Source: an uncultured Clostridiaceae bacterium
Lineage (GTDB): Bacteria; Bacillota; Clostridia; TANB77; CAG-508
DNA: 64,000 nt
Assembly (NCBI GenBank): GCA_947577025.1
Contig: CANPTO010000010.1
Location: 1 to 64,000 of the forward strand
Reading direction: 5' to 3'
Shown here: positions 39,785 through 64,000 of the stretch, piece after piece
Numbering within the stretch: position 1 is the first letter of the stretch
How the letters are laid out: each line of letters opens with the position of its first letter
Position numbers and translations under genes: made by a program
The notes under the pieces: generated by a model
What the model was told of the DNA's origin: nothing
What the model saw: only the letters and a program-made list of their open reading frames with translations
Databases searched by the model: none

Positions 39785-40378
39785 ATGAAAAAAATCTGTG
39801 ATATAATTTTAATTCTACTAATTATAGGAGCAATCATATTTGGAGTAATAATAGGAAGCGAATATTTAAGAAGAGAAAAAAATGAAGATAAACTATCAGC
39901 AGTAGTGGCACAAATAGAGAGTATAAACACAGATACAAGTAAAATAAGTAAAGAAAATAAACAAGAACTTATAAAAGTAGATGGATATGATGTAGAAGGA
40001 ATAATTGAAATACCAAAAATAAACATTAAATATCCAATAGTGAGTACAACAAGTGATGAGGCCATGAAAGTGGCCATCACAAAATTTTGGGGCACAAATA
40101 TAAATGATATAGGAAACTACACTATGGCAGGTCATAACTACAAAAATGGTACAATGTTTGGAAAAACAAAGTATCTACAAATAGGGGACAAAATAAAAAT
40201 GACAGATCTAAACCTAAACACAGTAGAATACGAAATATTCAAAATCTATACAATAGACCCAGATGATGTTAAATGTATAGAAAGTGTAGATCCAAATACA
40301 AGAGAAATAACACTAATAACATGTACAAATGGACACAAAAACAGGCTAATAACAAAAGCTAGAGAAATAATAAAATAA
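39785..40378 (+). CDS. Sortase
   Basis: A 197-residue sortase with an N-terminal membrane anchor (ILILLIIGAIIFGVIIG). Catalytic residues are visible: His in TMAGHNY, Cys in ITLITCTNG and Arg in HKNRLITKA. Sortases cleave sorting signals and attach proteins to wall peptides or to each other. The two neighbouring surface proteins lack an LPxTG motif, whereas the cohesin protein at 61999 has LPQTG. It is 22 bases upstream of the giant repeat protein. Confidence 0.92.
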   Translation: MKKICDIILILLIIGAIIFGVIIGSEYLRREKNEDKLSAVVAQIESINTDTSKISKENKQELIKVDGYDVEGIIEIPKINIKYPIVSTTSDEAMKVAITKFWGTNINDIGNYTMAGHNYKNGTMFGKTKYLQIGDKIKMTDLNLNTVEYEIFKIYTIDPDDVKCIESVDPNTREITLITCTNGHKNRLITKAREIIK

Positions 40379-40400
40379 TTTATTAATTGGAGGGGAAAAA

Positions 40401-43400
40401 ATGAAACAAAGACTTAATTATAAGAGTAGAAAAACTATTATAATTGTAGCAATTATCATAGCGCTACTTGCTATAGCATCAACAGGTATATATATGTTCA
40501 CAAAAGGTAATGATGAAGCAAAAGCGTTCACCGAAGGAAACACTACAATAGGAGGCCAAGAGGCAAATGAGGGAACACCAGGAAACACTAATAATCCTAC
40601 AACTGGGGATAACCCAGAAGAACAACAACCAGTAGAGCCAAATATAGAACCAGAACAAGGTTCACAAAATAATAATAATAATGGAGAGACACAAACAAAT
40701 CCAGCAAACAATAATTTACCAGGAAATACAACAAATACTAATACAAGACCAAATCAAAATGGAACAACTACAACAACTACAGGAAATGTTCCAAACCAAG
40801 AATATGTAACAGAAAGACAAGAAGAAGTAGAAAAAGTATCACAAGAGAACTTCCTAGTAGGATGGGCACCAATAAGTCTAGCTGCAATGACACAAAATAT
40901 TGGTTTAAATAAAGTAGATGAAGAACCAGCATATACAGTAAGCAAAGTAGCAACTCTAATAAATGGAGAAGAAATACAAAAAGATGAAAATGGAGAAATC
41001 AAAACAAAAGTAAAAACAGGGGACACAGTTACATATAAAATAACAGTAACAAACAGAGGAAATGTAACATTACAAAATATACAAGTAATAGATGAATTAG
41101 CAAACTATGAAAAAACAATAGCAGTTTTAGCAATAGGAGATAGCGAAGAACTAGATGTAGTATATACAGTAAAACAAGAAGATATAACGAAAACAGATTC
41201 AATAATAAACACAGTAAAAGTAATAGTACCAGAAATAACAGACCCAGAAAATCCAGTAAAAGACGAAGAAGAAATACCAGCAAATCCATATATAACAGTA
41301 AGTGGAGAAAAAACATGGGTAGCACCAGAAGGAACAAAATATCCTACGATAACAATTAATTTACTAAGAGATGGTGAAAAAATAGACTCAAAAGAATTAG
41401 TAAATGGAGAAACAACATATGCATTTGAAAATTTATATAAATATGATGAAACAGATGCACATGAATATCTATATGAAGTAACAGAAAATGATGTAGAAGG
41501 ATATACAAAATCACAAGAAGAATATAATTTTACAAATACAATAAGAACAGACTTAAGTTATACAGTAAATTACCTAGAAAAAGGAACAAATACAGTTTTA
41601 AATACGGCAAAAACAGTAGATAATCAAACATTTGGAGCAGAAGTAACAGAAAAGGCAATAGAAATAGAAGGATACAACAAAGTAGCTCCAACAGAAGAAA
41701 CAATAAAAATAAAAATAGAAGGAAATGTAATAAACTTCTATTACACAAAACGTGCAGATTTAAGCTACACAGTAAATTACTTAGAAAAAGATACAAATAA
41801 AGTATTATCAACAGCAAAAATAGTAGGAAATCAAACATTTGGAGCAGAAGTAAAAGAAGAAGCAATAGAAATAGAAGGATACAATAAAGTAGCTCCAACA
41901 GAAGAAACAATAACAATAAAAGTAGAAGGAAACGTAATAGACTTCTATTACACAAAACGTGCAGACCTAAGCTACACAGTAAACTACTTAGAAAAAGATA
42001 CAGATAAAGTATTAGCAGAAGCAAAAACAGTAAATGGAAAAACATATAAAGAAGAAGTAACAGAAACAGCAAAAGAAATTACAGGATACACAGTAGATGC
42101 TGAAACTAAAAACATAACAATAGAAGTAGAAAATAATGTAATAAACTTCTACTACACAAAACGTGCAGACCTAAGCTACACAGTAAACTACTTAGAAAAA
42201 GATACAGATAAAGTATTAGCAGAAGCAAAAACAGTAAATGGAAAAACATATAAAGAAGAAGTAACAGAAACAGCAAAAGAAATTACAGGATACACAGTAG
42301 ATGCTGAAACTAAAAACATAACAATAGAAGTAGAAAACAATGTAATAAACTTCTACTACACAAAACGTGCAGATTTAAGCTATACAGTAAACTATTTAGA
42401 AAAAGATACAAATAAAGTATTATCAACAGCAAAAACAGTAGGAAATCAAATATTTGGAACAGAAGTAAAAGAAGAAGCAATAGAAATAGAAGGATACAAT
42501 AAAGTAGCTCCAACAGAAGAAACAATAACAATAAAAGTAGAAGGAAATGTAATAAACTTCTATTACACAAAACGTGCTGACTTAAGCTACACAGTAAACT
42601 ACTTAGAAAAAGATACAAATAAAGTATTATCAACAGCAAAAACAGTAGGAAATCAAATATTTGGAACAGAAGTAAAAGAAGAAGCAATAGAAATAGAAGG
42701 ATACAATAAAGTAGCTCCAACAGAAGAAACAATAACAATAAAAGTAGAAGGAAATGTAATAAACTTCTATTACACAAAACGTGCTGACTTAAGCTACACA
42801 GTAAACTACTTAGAAAAAGATACAAATAAAGTATTATCAACAGCAAAAACAGTAGGAAATCAAATATTTGGAACAGAAGTAAAAGAAGAAGCAATAGAAA
42901 TAGAAGGATACAATAAAGTAGCTCCAACAGAAGAAACAATAACAATAAAAGTAGAAGGAAATGTAATAAACTTCTATTACACAAAACGTGCTGACTTAAG
43001 CTACACAGTAAACTACTTAGAAAAAGATACAAATAAAGTATTATCAACAGCAAAAACAGTAAATAATCAAACATTTGGAGCAGAAGTAACAGAAAAAGCA
43101 ATAGAAATAGAAGGATACAACAAAGTAGCTCCAACAGAAGAAACAATAACACTAAAAGTAGAAGGAAACGTAATAAACTTCTATTACACAAAACGTGCTG
43201 ACTTAAGCTACACAGTAAACTACTTAGAAAAAGATACAAATAAAGTATTATCAACAGCAAAAACAGTAAATAATCAAACATTTGGCACAGAAGTAACAGA
43301 AAAAGCAATAGAAGTTACAGGATATACAGTAGATGCCGAAACTAAAAATATAACAATAGAAGTACAAAACAATGTAATAAACTTCTACTATCAAAAAGCT

Positions 43401-45359
43401 AAATTTAATTACACAGTAAAATACTACTATGAAGGAATATTAGATGATACAAAAACAGAAAGCATATTAGCAACATATGAAGATAAAATAACAACATATG
43501 AAGATAAATGTATAACAGGCTATATACTTAAAGAAACAAAGAATTTACCATTAACAGTAAGTGAAATAGCAGAAAATAATATAATAGAAGTATACTATGT
43601 AAAAGATAGCTTTGAATATAAAGTAGAATATTACTATGATGGTAAAATTGATAATAGCAAAACTGTACAAAGTACAGCAAAATATGGTGATAAAATAGAA
43701 AGTTATACAGATAAAAATATAACAGGCTATAAACTAGAAAGAACAGAAAAATTACCATTAACAATAAGTCCAGTAGTAGAAGAAAATGTAATAAAAATAT
43801 TCTATGAAAAAGCTAACTATGAATATACAATACAATATTATTATGATGGAACTATTGATGAAAGCAAAACAGAAAAATTAAGTGCTAAATATCAATCAGT
43901 TATAGAAAATATAGATACCGATAAAAATAAAACAGAAGGATATGTACTAGAAAAAGTAGAAGGAACACCATTAACAATAACAGCGATAGTATCTAAAAAT
44001 GTGATAAAAGTATATTATTCAAAACCAAATATTACAATAACAAAATCAGCAGTAAGTAAAGCTAATGCAGGTTCAGAAATAACATATACAATAACATTAA
44101 CAAATAAAGGAAAAGTAGAAGGTCAAACAACAGTTACAGATACATTGCCAGAAAGTCTAACATATATTTCAGCAGATAATGGAGCAACACAAGAAAACAA
44201 AGTAATAACATGGGCAAATGTAACAGTACCAGCAAATAGCACAAAAGTTTTAACAGTAAAAGCAAAAGTAAACGAAAACACAATAGGAAGTACAATTACA
44301 AATAATGTAACAACAAGCCAAGACAAAACAGATAGTGCAATAACTACAGTTAATGAGTTAACAATAAAAACACAAGAAATAACACAAGGAGAAACAGGAA
44401 AAGACTCAGTAAATGTTGTTTTAGTAATGGATTTATCTTATAGTATGTATGGAGAAAGACTTACAGCAGCAAAAACGGCAGCACAAAACTTCATAAGAAA
44501 TATATATGTAGACGGTAAAACAGGAAAACCTACAAATTCAAAAGCAACAGTAACAGTTATAACATTTAATACAAAAGACCCAGTTACAACAGGATGGGTA
44601 AACAAAAAAGAAATTCCATATACAGGAACAAAAATACTAGGAACAACAGTAGATAAAAATAATTATTCAACTTTAGTAAATGAAATAGGAGCAATTACAT
44701 TACCAAGCCAAAATACAAGTTCTGGTTTAGGTACTAATGTGTATGAAGCATTGAATACAACTAAGAACACAATATATGGAACAAATGGACTTAATACACA
44801 ATATCCAAATAACAAAAATGTGGTAATATTCTTAGGCGATGGAGAACCTACAACATCTTATTCAGGTAACGAATATTCAAAAAGAAATGAAAATTATCCA
44901 ACTATAGAAGCAAAAGCAAAAGAAATAAAAGATAATAAAGCTGATATATATTCAATTGGATTTGGAGAAGATGCTACAAAAACAGATTCAAAAGCATATA
45001 AATTATTAAAGAAAATATCTTCTAATAATGTAGTTTATACAGCAAATGACGCAACTGAATTATCAAAAGTATTTACGAACTTACAAGAAGCAATAAAACC
45101 TGATGAAAATACATCAACAAAAGGTAAAAATATAGTAACATTAAGTAAAGAACTAGTAGTAGATGCTAATAGCCCTATAATAGTAAAAATAGGAGAAAAA
45201 GAAGTATTTAAATGTACAGATAAAGCTAAATTATCAGAATACTGCTTAAGCTATGAAAACAAAACATTAACATGGGATGTAAATGCATGGAACTCAAAAA
45301 CAGATGTAACAAAAGTAACATCAGGAGAAGTAATGTTATCATACTACGTTGAAAGATAA
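40401..45359 (+). CDS. Giant surface protein with MucBP-type repeats and a VWA domain
   Basis: 1652 residues. An N-terminal membrane anchor (IIIVAIIIALLAIASTGIYM) is followed by a Pro/Asn/Gly/Thr-rich stalk, a DUF11-like region (about 170-290), a CnaB-like domain (about 295-375), nine MucBP-like repeats of 68-69 residues (about 383-1000), three diverged repeats of about 70 residues with YYYDG, another DUF11-like domain, and a VWA domain with MIDAS sequence DLSYSMYG. MucBP-type repeats and VWA point to adhesion. There is no C-terminal sorting signal, so the N-terminal helix must anchor it, which is unusual beside a sortase. GGAGGGG sets the start. Confidence 0.9.
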   Translation: MKQRLNYKSRKTIIIVAIIIALLAIASTGIYMFTKGNDEAKAFTEGNTTIGGQEANEGTPGNTNNPTTGDNPEEQQPVEPNIEPEQGSQNNNNNGETQTNPANNNLPGNTTNTNTRPNQNGTTTTTTGNVPNQEYVTERQEEVEKVSQENFLVGWAPISLAAMTQNIGLNKVDEEPAYTVSKVATLINGEEIQKDENGEIKTKVKTGDTVTYKITVTNRGNVTLQNIQVIDELANYEKTIAVLAIGDSEELDVVYTVKQEDITKTDSIINTVKVIVPEITDPENPVKDEEEIPANPYITVSGEKTWVAPEGTKYPTITINLLRDGEKIDSKELVNGETTYAFENLYKYDETDAHEYLYEVTENDVEGYTKSQEEYNFTNTIRTDLSYTVNYLEKGTNTVLNTAKTVDNQTFGAEVTEKAIEIEGYNKVAPTEETIKIKIEGNVINFYYTKRADLSYTVNYLEKDTNKVLSTAKIVGNQTFGAEVKEEAIEIEGYNKVAPTEETITIKVEGNVIDFYYTKRADLSYTVNYLEKDTDKVLAEAKTVNGKTYKEEVTETAKEITGYTVDAETKNITIEVENNVINFYYTKRADLSYTVNYLEKDTDKVLAEAKTVNGKTYKEEVTETAKEITGYTVDAETKNITIEVENNVINFYYTKRADLSYTVNYLEKDTNKVLSTAKTVGNQIFGTEVKEEAIEIEGYNKVAPTEETITIKVEGNVINFYYTKRADLSYTVNYLEKDTNKVLSTAKTVGNQIFGTEVKEEAIEIEGYNKVAPTEETITIKVEGNVINFYYTKRADLSYTVNYLEKDTNKVLSTAKTVGNQIFGTEVKEEAIEIEGYNKVAPTEETITIKVEGNVINFYYTKRADLSYTVNYLEKDTNKVLSTAKTVNNQTFGAEVTEKAIEIEGYNKVAPTEETITLKVEGNVINFYYTKRADLSYTVNYLEKDTNKVLSTAKTVNNQTFGTEVTEKAIEVTGYTVDAETKNITIEVQNNVINFYYQKAKFNYTVKYYYEGILDDTKTESILATYEDKITTYEDKCITGYILKETKNLPLTVSEIAENNIIEVYYVKDSFEYKVEYYYDGKIDNSKTVQSTAKYGDKIESYTDKNITGYKLERTEKLPLTISPVVEENVIKIFYEKANYEYTIQYYYDGTIDESKTEKLSAKYQSVIENIDTDKNKTEGYVLEKVEGTPLTITAIVSKNVIKVYYSKPNITITKSAVSKANAGSEITYTITLTNKGKVEGQTTVTDTLPESLTYISADNGATQENKVITWANVTVPANSTKVLTVKAKVNENTIGSTITNNVTTSQDKTDSAITTVNELTIKTQEITQGETGKDSVNVVLVMDLSYSMYGERLTAAKTAAQNFIRNIYVDGKTGKPTNSKATVTVITFNTKDPVTTGWVNKKEIPYTGTKILGTTVDKNNYSTLVNEIGAITLPSQNTSSGLGTNVYEALNTTKNTIYGTNGLNTQYPNNKNVVIFLGDGEPTTSYSGNEYSKRNENYPTIEAKAKEIKDNKADIYSIGFGEDATKTDSKAYKLLKKISSNNVVYTANDATELSKVFTNLQEAIKPDENTSTKGKNIVTLSKELVVDANSPIIVKIGEKEVFKCTDKAKLSEYCLSYENKTLTWDVNAWNSKTDVTKVTSGEVMLSYYVER
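41547..43400 (+). repeat. Nine tandem MucBP-like repeats, nearly identical at DNA level
   Basis: In-gene repeats of 207 bases (type A, 69 residues) or 204 bases (type B, 68 residues), each opening with DLSYTVNYLEK and closing with NFYYTKR. Order: A A B B A A A A, then an A/B hybrid. Copies 3-4 are almost identical to each other, as are copies 5-7, which implies recent duplication or gene conversion. Confidence 0.92.
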
Positions 45360-57346: not shown

Positions 57347-57380
57347 AGGAAAGATTTGGGACGTGTCTAAATCTTTCCTA
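57347..57380. terminator. Repeat R2 hairpin after the acetyltransferase
   Basis: AGGAAAGATTTGGGACGTGTC and AAATCTTTCCT pair immediately after the stop codon; a short copy of the R2 element. Confidence 0.7.
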
Positions 57381-57492
57381 ATATTATGTCTAAAATCCTG
57401 CAGACTAGAAAAAATTAACAGAAACATTTACATAAACATGCTTTCGTGTTATAATTAAAAGAGAGTACTAAATAATAAAAGGGGGTTATCTT

Positions 57493-60400
57493 GTGAAAAA
57501 AAGAGATATTAAATTTTTTTGGAAAATAATTATTTTTATTGTAGTATTAACATTAGGTATACTAATATTAACTAATCACAGTAAAGCAAATAGTGAAGAG
57601 ATAAAAGAAAGTAAATTTTGTTATCTATCAGATATCCCATATATTGCTGAACAATCCAGTGTAGGATGGGGAAGTATAACATTAGACCAAAACTTAGAAA
57701 CTAAGTATAATGATGGGTTAATAGCACTGCAAATAGATGACCAAGTTAAATTTTTTATAAAAGGAGTAAGTGCACATGCAACATCAACACTAGTTTATGA
57801 CATAAGTTCATACAATTATGATTACTTTACAACATATTTTGGTGTAGATGCAAGTAGACAAAACAATGGAAATGGTGTTAAATTTGCAATATATACATCA
57901 AAGGATGGACAAAATTGGGACTTACATACACCAGTGTCACCACCTGTAATGAAAGGTAACACAAATGCGAATTTTATAAAAATAGATATAAAAGAAGCAA
58001 AATATTTAAAATTATATTGTCATAATAATGGAAATGCCACAGCAGATCATGCTGTATATGCAGACGCAAAATTAATTAAAGAAGGTTATGAAGAAGAAGA
58101 AACAAAAATTGACTTTATAAAAACAATAGAAGAATATGACGAAATAATTAAGAATCATACAGGAGAAGAAATAACAGGAGAGTATGAACTAACAATACTA
58201 CAAAGAGAATTTGTAAAAAACGTTGGATATGATATATTACAATCATATACAGCTTTAAACGAAGAAAATGAATAAACCATTTCATGGTTAATGAATGATG
58301 TAGAAAACTTACGTTTATACATATTAGGAGGAAAGCCAACAGGAAGTTACTTGTCATCATTAAAAGTTTTAAATAACTTATATAAAACATATAAAGAAGA
58401 CTTTAAAATACAAGAAATATCAAAATATGGAACTATAAAAGGTGATTTATATAAAAAAATGGCAATAACACTTTCACTTACACATTCATCAAAAGTAGCT
58501 CTATGGATGCAACCATCAGCACCAGAAAATCAATCAGATGCAGTTACACGTTATTCAATATTTAAAAAGATGTATGATGAAGGAAAATTTGTTGTTTCTT
58601 CAAGTATAGATATTACAAAATGGTTTGAACAATATAATGTAGAAGAAATGCGTTTTGTAATGAATAACATAATAGATGATGAAGAAATTTTATGGTTAAA
58701 TGAATACACTAAAAAGCAAATAGATGCTCACCCAGCACAAGTATGGACATATTTAACACCACATCCTTATATGGCATATGTATGGCCAGACTATGGAAAT
58801 CCAATATTCCATGATCCAGATAAAAAAGAATTTTGGGATGAAAAATATGAGGGAATATTCTCTAAATATGGAGTAAGTTATAGTACAGAAACAAACAAAA
58901 TATATAAAGTATGGATGAACTTTAGAAATGAATTTGGAACAGGAGCAGTTTGTGGTGGAATATCAAAAACAGGTTCAAATATTCGTACAGTTCATGGTAT
59001 ACCAGCAGCAGTTATTGGTCAACCAGGTCATGCAGCTATTATCTACTATGGTCAAGATGAGCAAGGTAGAGGATACTGGAATATTGATAATGACGTAAGT
59101 GGTTGGACACTATCGGAAAAAGGTGAAAGAATGCTACTAGGTTGGGGAAATGCTAGTTATACTAAAGGATCTTATCAAGTAGTATATATGGTATTAGCAC
59201 AAGAAGCATTAAATGATTATGAAAACTTTGAAAAATGTGAAAAAACAATAATGCTTGCAAACTCATATAGTGGAGACTTAGAAAAACAAGAAGAAATATA
59301 TAGAAAAGCATTAGAAATACAACCAATCAATATAGATGCATGGTATGCTCTAATTAACGTATATAACTTAAACGAAAATAAAACAGAAAATGATTATTAT
59401 GATTTAGCTAAAGAACTAGCAGAAAAATTAAAATATTTCCCACTACCAATGCAACAATTAACAGACTTAATAAAAACAAAAATAACAAGTATAGAAAATT
59501 CTTATAAATTTACACTTTTACAAACAAGAATACTAAAAGAGGCAAGCCAAACACCAAATAATACAGAGCAAGACTACTATGTATATCAACCAAGTATTAC
59601 AAGAACAGAAGCAAACTTCTTATTAGGAAAATTAGATAAAACAATAGCAACTTTCTCATTTGATGGAGAAGATAGTGGAAAAATTGTATTATCAAGTCGC
59701 TTTGACGGAAATGGAATTCGCTGGGATTATAGCTTAGATGGAAAACAAACATGGAATGAAGTATCATTCACAGCAGAGGAAGAACATAAACTAGAGCTAA
59801 CCCCAGAACAAATTGCAAGTATCACAGATGAAAATGACATATATGTTCATATTGTAGGAGTAGGCTATGAAGAAGAAAACCTTTATAAAATAGACATTAC
59901 AAAAGGTACATTGCCAAATACATTATTTAATAATGATTTAGAAAACCGTGTAGTAGGTGTAAACCTTACAATGCAATGGCGTATGGCAGGAACAGAAGAA
60001 TGGACTTCATATAAAACTTCAAGCCCAAACTTAACAGGAAATGCAACAGTAGAAGTTCGAGTAGGAGCAACTGGAACATCTCTTCCAAGTGAGCCAATTT
60101 CACTAAGTTTTACGGAAGATAATCAACCAGATACAAGAAAATACATTCCAGTATCACATTTAACAATAGAAGCAGTATCTACACAAGCAACTTCTAATCA
60201 AGGTAGTGCAACATATGCAATTGATGCTAACTATAATACAAGATGGCATTCTGCATGGAATGGTTCAGATACTGAAAGATATATTATTATAAAATTAGAT
60301 AATCCAGTATATTTATCAGCAGTAGAATTTGTTCCAGCAGGTGGAGGAAATGGAAAAATAATAGATGGAACAATATATGGAAGTACAGATGGTGAAAATT

Positions 60401-61950
60401 GGGAAGTGTTATCACAACAAACAGACTTAAGATATACAAACCAAGCTAATACAATAGCAGATGCTATAATCAATACAAAGAATTTCGAAATAGAAGAACC
60501 AAAACAAGTACAATATGTAAAAATCGTAGCAGACCATGCTTCAAATGGAAATTGGTTCACAGCAAGAGCATTTAATCTATTCCAAGACATAACACAAAAT
60601 TTACGCCCAACAGCAGGCATAGCTTTTAGTACAGAAGAACCAACAAGAGGAAATGTAGTAGCAAGACTAGTTAATCCAAGTGCACAAATAACAATAACAA
60701 ATAATAATGGTAACGATACATATACCTTCACAGAAAATGGACAATTTACATTTGAATTTGTTGATGAATATGGAAGAGAAGGTAAAGCTATTGCAAAAGT
60801 AGACTGGATAGATAGACAAAGTCCTACTGCAACTATTGAATATAGCCAAAATTCTATAACAAATAAAGATGTTATAGCTACACTAAAAAACATTAGTGAA
60901 GATATATATATAATTAATGAAGATGGAATAAAAACTAACTATGTTGAAGTTGAAAATAATAAAGTAAAATCTATCACTTACATTAATGAAGAAGGAAAAA
61001 CTACTAAAGTATTAGAATTAGATGAAGATGGAAACACACAAAGTATTAAATACTTTAATGATAATGAAAAAGTTGTATATATTACAAAATTTAAAGAAGA
61101 TGGAAGTATAGAAGAAATATTCCTAAATGAAGATGGAGAGGAAATTGCTCCACCAGAAAATGCAGAAGAATATCGTAAATTAAGTCAAATAGGAAGAACA
61201 AAACCATTAGAACATACATTTGAAGAAAATGGAACATACATTTTTAGAATTCAAGATAGAGCAGGAAATTCAGCACAAATTGAAGCAAGCACAAACTTAA
61301 TTGATAAAGAAGTTCCAACAGCACAAATACAATATGATATTACACAAACAACAAACAATGCTGTAACAGCAACAATAATATTAAGTAAAGAAAACGCATA
61401 TGTTACAAATAATAATGGAAATAAAACATATACATTTAACAGAAATGGTGAATTTACATTTGAATTCCAAGATGAAGCAGGAAATAAAGGTACCGTAACA
61501 GCAAAAGTAAATTGGATTATAGAAACAGAAGAAGAAATAACATTAAAATCAAAATATAAAACAATTGAAGAAGGCGAAAATAAATATTTATATAGAATTA
61601 ATGCAAAAACAACATTAAAAGAATTTATCAAAGATATTGAAACAAATGGAATTATAACAACATATAAAAAAGATGGAACAATTTTAAAACAAGATGAATT
61701 TATAGGAACAGGAATGATATTAAAAGTTAAAAACGAATCAGGAACTAAAGAAATTTCTTTAACATTATCTGTAATAGGAGATACAGATGGAAATGGAGAA
61801 GTAACACCAACAGATTTAGCAGATGCTATTCAAATGTCTTTAGGTGAAAATAACTTTAATATTACACAAAAACTAGCTGTGGATATAAATGAAGACAATG
61901 AAACAACACCAACAGACTTAGCAGATATGATAAAAATGACATTAGAGTAA
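57493..61950 (+). CDS. Secreted NPCBM/transglutaminase-like/F5-8C/dockerin protein, interrupted by an in-frame TAA
   Basis: A reading frame of 1486 codons that is continuous except for TAA at 58273. Domains in order: signal peptide (VVLTLGILILTNHSKA); an NPCBM-like carbohydrate-binding domain (about 40-200, YLSDIPYIAEQSS, GVSAHATSTLVYDI); a transglutaminase-like domain with Cys in GAVCGGISKTGS, His in GQPGHAAIIYYG and Asp in YWNIDNDVSGW; an F5/8 type C (discoidin) domain (ATYAIDANYNTRWHSAW); Ig-like repeats; and a type I dockerin (DTDGNGEVTPTDLADAI and DINEDNETTPTDLADMI). The ATG at 58291 after the stop has no ribosome site, so the halves are one gene with a nonsense change, an error, or readthrough. 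Its partner is the cohesin next door. Confidence 0.82.
58273..58275 (+). other. In-frame TAA inside the dockerin protein gene
   Basis: GAA TAA ACC ATT TCA TGG: sequence on both sides is in the same frame and forms one protein. A single change from AAA, CAA or GAA to TAA would explain it. It is not of the CGG type. Confidence 0.75.
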
Positions 61951-61998
61951 TAACATAATTAGTAATATAAATATAAAATTGAAAGGAGAAATAAAAAT

Positions 61999-62700
61999 AT
62001 GAAAAAAACAATAAAAATCATTTCAATAATTACAATTATGGCAATAATAATAAGTATAGTAAATATATCAAATGCATTCTCATTTAATGCAAGTTTATCA
62101 TCAAATGATAAATTAATAGCAGGTCAAGAAGTAAAAGTTACATTAACCCTAAGTAATATAGATATGGACGATGGAATACGTTCAATAAAAGTAGGAAAAA
62201 TAACAATAGGGGAAGAATTTGAAGAAATAACAGCAAAAAGTTTTTCAAGTACAACATGGATGACAACATATGCAAATGGTGGGTTAGTATTAATGTCAGG
62301 AACACCCATAACAGAAGAAGGAGTAGCGGTAACATTAACACTAAAAGTGAAACAAGGAATAACAGCAAAATCATCAGCAGTAAGCTTTGAAAATATAGTT
62401 GCATCATCAGGCTCAAATACAGGAGATATAAAAGTAGATACAAAAACTATAACAATAAAAGCAGAAGGTGGAGACCAAACACCAACAACACCAACAGAGC
62501 CAGAAAAGCCAACAACACCAACACAGCCAGAAAAACCAACTACGCCTAACAAACCAGAAAATCCACCTAAAGAAACATTACCAAGTAGACTACCACAAAC
62601 AGGAGAAAAAGAAGTAATAACAATAATAGTAACATCACTAATGGTAATAACAGCAATATTTGGAGTAGTAAGTTTTATAAAATATAAAAAAATTAGATAA
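61999..62700 (+). CDS. Wall-anchored cohesin protein
   Basis: 233 residues: a signal peptide (residues 1-28), one cohesin-like domain (about 30-155, SLSSNDKLIAGQEVKVTLTL, SNIDMDDGIRSIKVG, VTLTLKVKQG), a Pro/Thr/Lys stalk (PTTPTEPEKPTTPTQPEKP), and a complete sorting signal: LPQTG, a hydrophobic helix and the basic tail KYKKIR. A sortase would fix it to peptidoglycan. The dockerin protein ends 49 bases upstream, so the pair probably forms a one-cohesin surface complex. GAAAGGAG precedes the ATG. Confidence 0.88.
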   Translation: MKKTIKIISIITIMAIIISIVNISNAFSFNASLSSNDKLIAGQEVKVTLTLSNIDMDDGIRSIKVGKITIGEEFEEITAKSFSSTTWMTTYANGGLVLMSGTPITEEGVAVTLTLKVKQGITAKSSAVSFENIVASSGSNTGDIKVDTKTITIKAEGGDQTPTTPTEPEKPTTPTQPEKPTTPNKPENPPKETLPSRLPQTGEKEVITIIVTSLMVITAIFGVVSFIKYKKIR

Positions 62701-62982: not shown

Positions 62983-64000
62983 GTGCGCCCAGCAAAGGGT
63001 AAGTAATCTAGCGGGTGGAAATCCCGTCTGGTTAAGGTCTAACCAACCACCAGTAGCGAGTTTTGTGCTTATGACAGTAATGTTATGAGTAAAGCGTAAA
63101 CAGCGAGAAAGTAGGGTTAAAAGGCGATTCAGCCCGAAATGTTACCAATTAAAAGGCAAACGTGCTACTTACCACGGAATGCAATATCTAAACAATCGTT
63201 AAGGTGAGATTATTTAGGCTTTTACGGGGTCAATAGAGCCAATCATATTTTACATTGCGATTACTTTATCAACTGGGGAGAGCCTAATATTTCTTGTAGT
63301 AATACAAGTATGGCAAACAACAATAAAACGGAGAATGTCAAAAGAATGTTAGGCAGTCGGATAAGCTCGTAGTAGTGAGGAAGTTTCTGTAATGGAAATG
63401 GAGCAAAGGGGCTTACGTAATAACGGTCTTGACTACGGAAACATTATCTGTACTCAGGGACAGGAGGAATAATGGAAACAAAACTAGCAAGAATAGCAGA
63501 CAAATCAAGAAATGAAAAACAACCAATATTTACATCATTGTATCATTTAATCAATGAAGAATTACTAAAACAGTGTCATAAAGAACTAGATGGTAGTAAA
63601 GCAGTAGGAATAGACAGTGTAAGTAAGAAAGAATATGCAGAAAACTTAGATGAAAATATCAAAGGCTTAGTAATAAGACTAAAGAACAAAGCATATAAGC
63701 CATTACCAGCATTGAGAGTATATATACCAAAAGACAATGGTAAAATGAGACCACTAGGAATATCAATATACGAAGATAAAATTGTGCAATTAGCATTAAA
63801 GAAAATACTGGAGGCAATATATGAACCAAAATTCTTGGATAATATGTATGGATTTAGACCAAGTAGAGGATGTCATAAGGCAATCAAATATGTACACCAA
63901 AGTATTTCAAATAGAAGAATAAATTACATAGTAGATGCAGATATAAAAGGGTTCTTCGACCATATAGACCACAACTGGTTAATAAAATTCCTTGAATATA
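62983..64000 (+). mobile_element. Group II intron, 5' part
   Basis: It starts with GTGCGCCCAGCAAAGGGTAA, the usual bacterial group II 5' end (GUGYG), followed by about 490 bases of GC-richer structured RNA (GCGGGTGGAAATCCCGTC, ACCAACCACCAGTAGCGAG, CAGTCGGATAAGCTCGTAG) before the maturase gene. The 3' end (domains V-VI) lies outside the window. The insertion site is intergenic. Confidence 0.92.
63472..64000 (+). CDS. ltrA: Group II intron reverse transcriptase/maturase (partial)
   Basis: 176 codons visible, open at the right edge. N-terminal RT blocks are present: SLYHLINEELLKQCHKELDG, GIDSVSKKEYAENL, RVYIPKDNGKMRPLGI, FGFRPS-like YGFRPSRGCHKAIK and the start of the catalytic block VDADIKGFFDHIDH. 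The enzyme reverse-transcribes and helps splice the intron. GGAGG at 63464-63468 precedes the ATG. Confidence 0.95.
   Translation, partial: METKLARIADKSRNEKQPIFTSLYHLINEELLKQCHKELDGSKAVGIDSVSKKEYAENLDENIKGLVIRLKNKAYKPLPALRVYIPKDNGKMRPLGISIYEDKIVQLALKKILEAIYEPKFLDNMYGFRPSRGCHKAIKYVHQSISNRRINYIVDADIKGFFDHIDHNWLIKFLEY

Follow-up and report, generated by a model that had tools for sequence, protein, structure and literature searches.

How is a secreted enzyme held at the cell surface when it ends in a dockerin and the next gene encodes a single cohesin? Cohesins and dockerins are known mainly as assembly points of multi-enzyme complexes, and at this locus they seem to serve as simple anchors in two parts for single proteins. 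The locus lies on the forward strand of a stretch of 64,000 nucleotides (the window), which is part of contig C10 in the 2.04 Mb, 61-contig assembly of an uncultured Clostridiaceae bacterium. It comprises an enzyme gene (57493-61950) followed after 48 bp by a cohesin gene (61999-62700). We consider it probable that this is a two-gene unit encoding a surface protein in two parts, in which a dockerin-cohesin pair replaces the built-in anchor and can be exchanged as a cassette. The upstream gene, as found intact in relatives, would encode an exported protein of several domains, with CBM51 and discoidin to bind glycans of the host type, a putative cysteine-hydrolase domain, and at its end a dockerin in place of an anchor. 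The downstream gene would encode a small sortase-anchored protein, whose lone cohesin would capture this dockerin on the cell wall. The pair would in this way substitute for an LPXTG or membrane anchor, and could be gained, lost, and exchanged together.

Both halves of this predicted anchor were recovered by family searches. The first-pass annotation had placed a dockerin at the C-terminus of the enzyme, and this domain (61777-61935) is indeed above the Pfam cut-off (PF00404, E 2.6e-6, 33.1 vs. 22.9 bits), with the two PF00404-type calcium-loop repeats of type I dockerins. The cohesin gene, whose ATG is preceded by the Shine-Dalgarno-like sequence AAAGGAGA, has 233 codons and encodes the single-cohesin, LPQTG-anchored protein that had been described: a signal peptide, one cohesin (62089-62457), a Pro/Thr-rich stalk, an LPQTG sorting motif (62590-62604), and a membrane helix. 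This is the layout of a monovalent anchoring scaffoldin of the ScaE kind. The cohesin matches PF00963 with 21.5 bits, under the Pfam cut-off of 24.1. Its AlphaFold2 model (pLDDT 90.7) has cohesins as top Foldseek matches in the PDB (2vo8, E 3.1e-6), and the profile of its family matches solved cohesins (best E 3.2e-9); the cohesin fold is thus confirmed at the level of the predicted structure. As expected of a sortase substrate, the sorting signal exceeds the TIGR01167 cut-off (16.6 vs. 15.9 bits) and the genome has 6 sortase matches.

To what extent does a dockerin tail go with a neighboring cohesin gene? A scan of bacterial and archaeal genomes with the enzyme core returned 250 relatives, and we analyzed 80 loci, all from uncultured genomes and many of them labelled Clostridia, Bacilli, or Tenericutes. 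Fifty of the 80 enzymes end in a dockerin, 16 in a membrane helix, and 4 in an LPXTG motif, while 8 are cut by the end of a contig and 2 have an unrecognized C-terminus. A cohesin gene lies on the same strand within 300 bp of 37 of the 50 dockerin-tailed enzymes, and of none of the 20 with an LPXTG or membrane tail (Fisher p 3.5e-9, relatedness ignored). Of these 20 loci, 17 have 1.5 kb or more of sequence downstream. Placed on the tree of the enzyme core, the tails imply that anchoring by dockerin and direct anchoring replaced each other 9 times. Three members of the family are very long (L064, L084, and L094, 2659-2838 amino acids); L084 has an internal cohesin plus a dockerin, and a second enzyme copy lies 211 bp downstream of it.

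The two halves of the pair also vary together. Among 38 neighbor pairs, the distances between dockerins and those between cohesins are correlated (r = 0.951; partial r given the enzyme core 0.933), and none of 2000 permutations gave a value as high. Three loci (L079, L086, and L118) carry a DFxDIL-type dockerin even though their enzyme cores share 80-86% identity with those of enzymes that have a different type. Their cohesins are 65-69% alike mutually and around 30% to the cohesins of their core relatives, and the enzyme-core tree requires three separate changes to account for their dockerin type. That dockerins and neighboring cohesins co-vary tightly and switch together argues against an alternative in which the dockerin enzyme belongs to a surface complex that also serves other clients, with promiscuous pairing and the adjacent cohesin as one receptor among several. 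We regard this alternative as unlikely, a tandem-cohesin protein also not being seen among the cohesin proteins of the genome. In its favor, the genome has 8 dockerins and 7 cohesins, the dockerin enzymes of some relatives have no adjacent cohesin, and in some cases cohesin and dockerin occur on the same protein.

Several points nonetheless weigh against a split, exchangeable anchor. While the domains, the cohesin fold, the gene order, the link with tail type, the co-variation, and the stop are observed, the binding between dockerin and cohesin, sortase anchoring, proteolysis, and the mucosal target are inferred. Since the DNA of the dockerin adjoins that of the cohesin, a single recombination tract could move both, producing co-variation without binding; joint exchange of adjacent DNA accounts for co-movement, but not for the pair staying matched. 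When independent tree pairs are compared, the cohesin goes with the dockerin in around 3 of 6 and opposes it in 0, which is too few for significance. For 13 of the 50 enzymes with a dockerin tail, no cohesin gene is close by, and any binding would have to be to a partner located elsewhere; other cohesins of this genome could also compete for the dockerin. Finally, the enzyme gene of the window is itself interrupted, the exported piece as written lacking the catalytic and dockerin parts.

This interruption, an in-frame TAA at 58273-58275, was overlooked in the first-pass annotation, which took 57493-61950 as one open frame. The stop splits the gene into 260 and 1219 codons: a 5' open reading frame (ORF; 57493-58275) for an exported NPCBM domain, and a 3' ORF (58291-61950) with no signal peptide. 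In the close relatives G007, G024, G025, and G026 (95-97% identity), the frame is uninterrupted, at around 1486 amino acids, and therefore the TAA either arose very recently by mutation or is an error of sequencing or assembly. The lineage of the window shows 51 synonymous vs. 27 replacement changes and one stop in 4.4 kb, and the pairwise ratio of non-synonymous to synonymous rates (dN/dS) of the enzyme is 0.13-0.15, the window copy being no higher than the intact ones. Purifying selection together with a lone stop indicates that the gene was maintained until recently, and long-standing pseudogene decay is ruled out by this selection. One may still propose that the locus is a decaying pseudogene in this strain, with a dead enzyme and a cohesin protein that is a leftover or serves other dockerins. 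The stop and the lack of a signal peptide in the downstream frame speak for it, but the lesion is single, the excess of synonymous changes gives no sign of relaxed selection, and the stop may be an assembly error; we find this scenario rather unlikely. The functional reading of the locus applies to the window strain only if the frame is truly open, and intact copies exist in the relatives.

What the anchor would display is suggested by the other domains of the enzyme. The secreted multidomain architecture that had been proposed was recovered, with a signal peptide, an NPCBM/CBM51 domain (~57619-58074, NPCBM E 6.6e-27), and an F5/8 type C (discoidin) domain (60172-60570, PF00754 E 2.6e-15). The 3' piece is arranged as a helical region, the catalytic-type domain, TPR-like helices (59179-59547; a weak Pfam TPR match, and helices in the model of a relative), the F5/8C domain, an Ig-like region, and the dockerin. 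The N-terminal domain is a confident CBM51, since the model of an intact relative superposes on 2vmh with a VIA-align Z of 21.7 and a root mean square deviation (rmsd) of 1.5 over 144 residues. It resembles modules of the Clostridium perfringens GH95, GH98, and ZmpB M60 protease proteins, its nearest structures being the GH95 and ZmpB modules (Z ~21, rmsd 1.5-1.8). CBM51 and discoidin thus seem to be binding modules of the host-glycan type, predicted to bind mucus sugars, which agrees with the earlier view of a surface cohesin-dockerin pair outside cellulose breakdown.

The nature of the presumed catalytic domain (58882-59184) required more attention. Its catalytic-type residues are a Cys (58951-58953), a His (59029-59031), and an Asp-Asn-Asp stretch (59086-59094). 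The Cys, His, and Asn are kept in 80 of the 80 relatives, and each of the flanking Asp columns is Asp in 77 of the 80. The domain had been called transglutaminase-like, a name that Pfam does not return at any threshold tried: in a search of the whole genome, Transglut_core (PF01841) left it unmatched even at E 10, while 4 other proteins of the genome scored above the cut-off, and none of 49 homologues matched this family. No Pfam family matched the domain, and its profile gave chance-level hits in a PDB sequence search (best: ribosomal eS21, E 0.81). When a 666-residue model was compared with Foldseek and VIA-align, the CBM51 part was matched and TPR designs weakly so, the catalytic part being at low model confidence. 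As the Cys, His, and Asn/Asp are invariant or nearly so, the domain is likely a putative cysteine hydrolase, maybe transglutaminase-like, which we do not file as a member of Transglut_core. Given the CBM51 and discoidin modules, it probably acts as a protease or amidase on mucosal glycoproteins.

An alternative is a true transglutaminase that cross-links host or bacterial proteins. The order of Cys, His, and Asn/Asp with a GIPA-type motif fits it, as does an hhalign comparison with 19 true Transglut_core domains, in which the Cys motif alone aligns, on the catalytic Cys (probability 42%, score 29.8). Shuffling the columns 150 times never gave a higher score, but among 150 controls shuffled in blocks one outscored the true alignment, and the Pfam and PDB sequence searches gave no match. 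Moreover, most bacterial domains of the Transglut_core superfamily are thought to be hydrolases. The conserved residues and the Cys-motif alignment do not separate cross-linking from proteolysis, and overall we hold cross-linking to be very unlikely.

How common are such pairs? The first-pass annotation saw in this locus the smallest possible cohesin-dockerin system, a view that does not hold at the scale of the genome, where profile searches for the families found 8 dockerins, 7 cohesins, and the 6 sortases mentioned above. A single dockerin in the genome is hence rejected. The annotation had also named many unrelated dockerin enzymes as what would make the pair unremarkable: other dockerin proteins do exist, but they look mostly adhesin-like, with BspA-type leucine-rich repeats, RCC1, Listeria-Bacteroides repeats, SpaA, Cna_B, SH3, and Big_2 domains. 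We found no glycoside hydrolase catalytic domain in the scanned dockerin proteins (for one of 5303 amino acids, the last 1283 were scanned), and no tandem cohesins among the cohesin proteins of the genome that were examined, all having a single cohesin, although divergent cohesins may escape detection. A cellulosome was rejected, as neither dockerins on plant-polysaccharide glycoside hydrolases nor a tandem-cohesin scaffoldin were found among the proteins scanned.

In the genus, dockerins are present in 27 of 27 genomes and cohesins in 25 of 27. Among the 117 cohesin matches, 52 lie less than 1 kb from a dockerin (0.8 expected under uniform placement) and 82 within 7 kb (5.9 expected). For this genus, it is the norm that cohesin and dockerin genes adjoin. 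A broader proposal, to which we give slightly less than even credence, is that this uncultured lineage of gut Clostridia has many insulated, one-to-one dockerin-cohesin pairs that fix adhesins and enzymes to the wall and can be exchanged, the anchor being gained or changed by swapping one 3' cassette.

Other cohesin and dockerin genes have diverse arrangements. The 5303-amino-acid protein (L017:1940-17851, genome C16) is secreted and has at least 9 Cna_B domains and a C-terminal dockerin, on a contig with no cohesin match. A SpaA-repeat protein with both cohesin and dockerin (L015:6534-12735, genome C15) has a small anchored cohesin gene on either side. ORFs of around 1260-1305 amino acids with a true Transglut_core and a cohesin occur at G007:C19:8236-11930 and, alike, in G015:C13, G008:C1, G005:C16, G011:C6, and G002:C14. 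Some have a dockerin match too, and they adjoin another cohesin gene; they are a second, distinct transglutaminase-like cohesin-dockerin family.

Around the locus itself, the upstream gene ends in a terminator-like stem-loop (57347-57379, plus strand, 14-pair stem), which is a consensus match only. A promoter-like site follows at 57427-57455 on the same strand (TTTACA-17-TATAAT with a TG ahead of the second hexamer, 11 of 12 consensus positions). It lies 38 bp upstream of the GTG start of the enzyme gene, and is also a consensus match only, equally frequent in shuffled sequence. Directly downstream of the cohesin gene is a group II intron (63018-63240 and 63472-64000 of the window; L020:7019-8863 on the contig), with an RF02005 domain of Rfam, a reverse transcriptase ORF, and an RF00029 domain past the end of the window. 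A second RF02005 copy is at L020:15757-15979. Elsewhere in the window (39785-45359), a sortase gene precedes that of a secreted 1652-amino-acid protein with Cna_B, VWA, and many near-identical repeats (SYTVNYLEKDTNKVL), which resembles a surface adhesin served by its own sortase.

The locus family is of interest for several reasons. Relatives with a built-in tail are natural controls, and make it testable why a surface protein and its anchor would be split, be it for exchange, release, or shared display. Matched dockerin-cohesin pairs could also be drawn from it as a natural resource. In addition, the enzymes constitute a family of putative cysteine hydrolases that carry CBM51, with 250 relatives and a catalytic domain matching no named family in the libraries searched. 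In a limited literature search, which does not imply absence from the literature, we found no paper on NPCBM together with transglutaminase domains or on neighboring cohesin-dockerin anchor pairs.

Compared with known systems, the most fitting description of the pair is a wall anchor that is split and exchangeable, akin to the ScaE-type anchoring scaffoldins but with no multi-enzyme scaffold seen. The ScaE protein of R. flavefaciens is an established single-cohesin LPXTG protein that captures a dockerin (PMC2930009). It shares with the cohesin protein described here the single cohesin, the LPXTG motif, the sortase-type wall attachment, and the capture, predicted in our case, of a C-terminal dockerin. 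However, ScaE holds ScaB and, through it, an entire multi-enzyme cellulosome, whereas here the cohesin gene adjoins and pairs with one enzyme gene. R. flavefaciens also has dockerin proteins annotated as transglutaminase-like, leucine-rich-repeat, and serpin (PMC2930009). In both organisms, dockerins thus occur on proteins of transglutaminase-like and leucine-rich-repeat type that have no part in cellulose breakdown, but in R. flavefaciens they are within a large cellulosome, and here in separate neighbor pairs with a domain that the transglutaminase model does not recognize. The C. perfringens NagJ (2jh2) and GH33 (2vo8) cohesins are the nearest solved folds, and that species shares the host-glycan target predicted here and has the nearest CBM51 modules; its cohesin is non-cellulosomal and sits within the enzyme, instead of on a wall anchor. 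The Limousia mucinolysome (PMC12997984) is likewise a cohesin-dockerin system of gut bacteria, with mucin as its proposed target, but it is built on scaffoldins, of which two have cohesins in tandem, and includes many glycoside hydrolases with dockerins, where we find lone cohesins next to lone partners. Single-cohesin proteins with membrane tails are also listed in a 2024 survey (PMC11557425). What differs from these systems is the one-to-one adjacent pairing with single surface proteins, the alternation with built-in anchors on the same enzyme, and the exchange as a unit.

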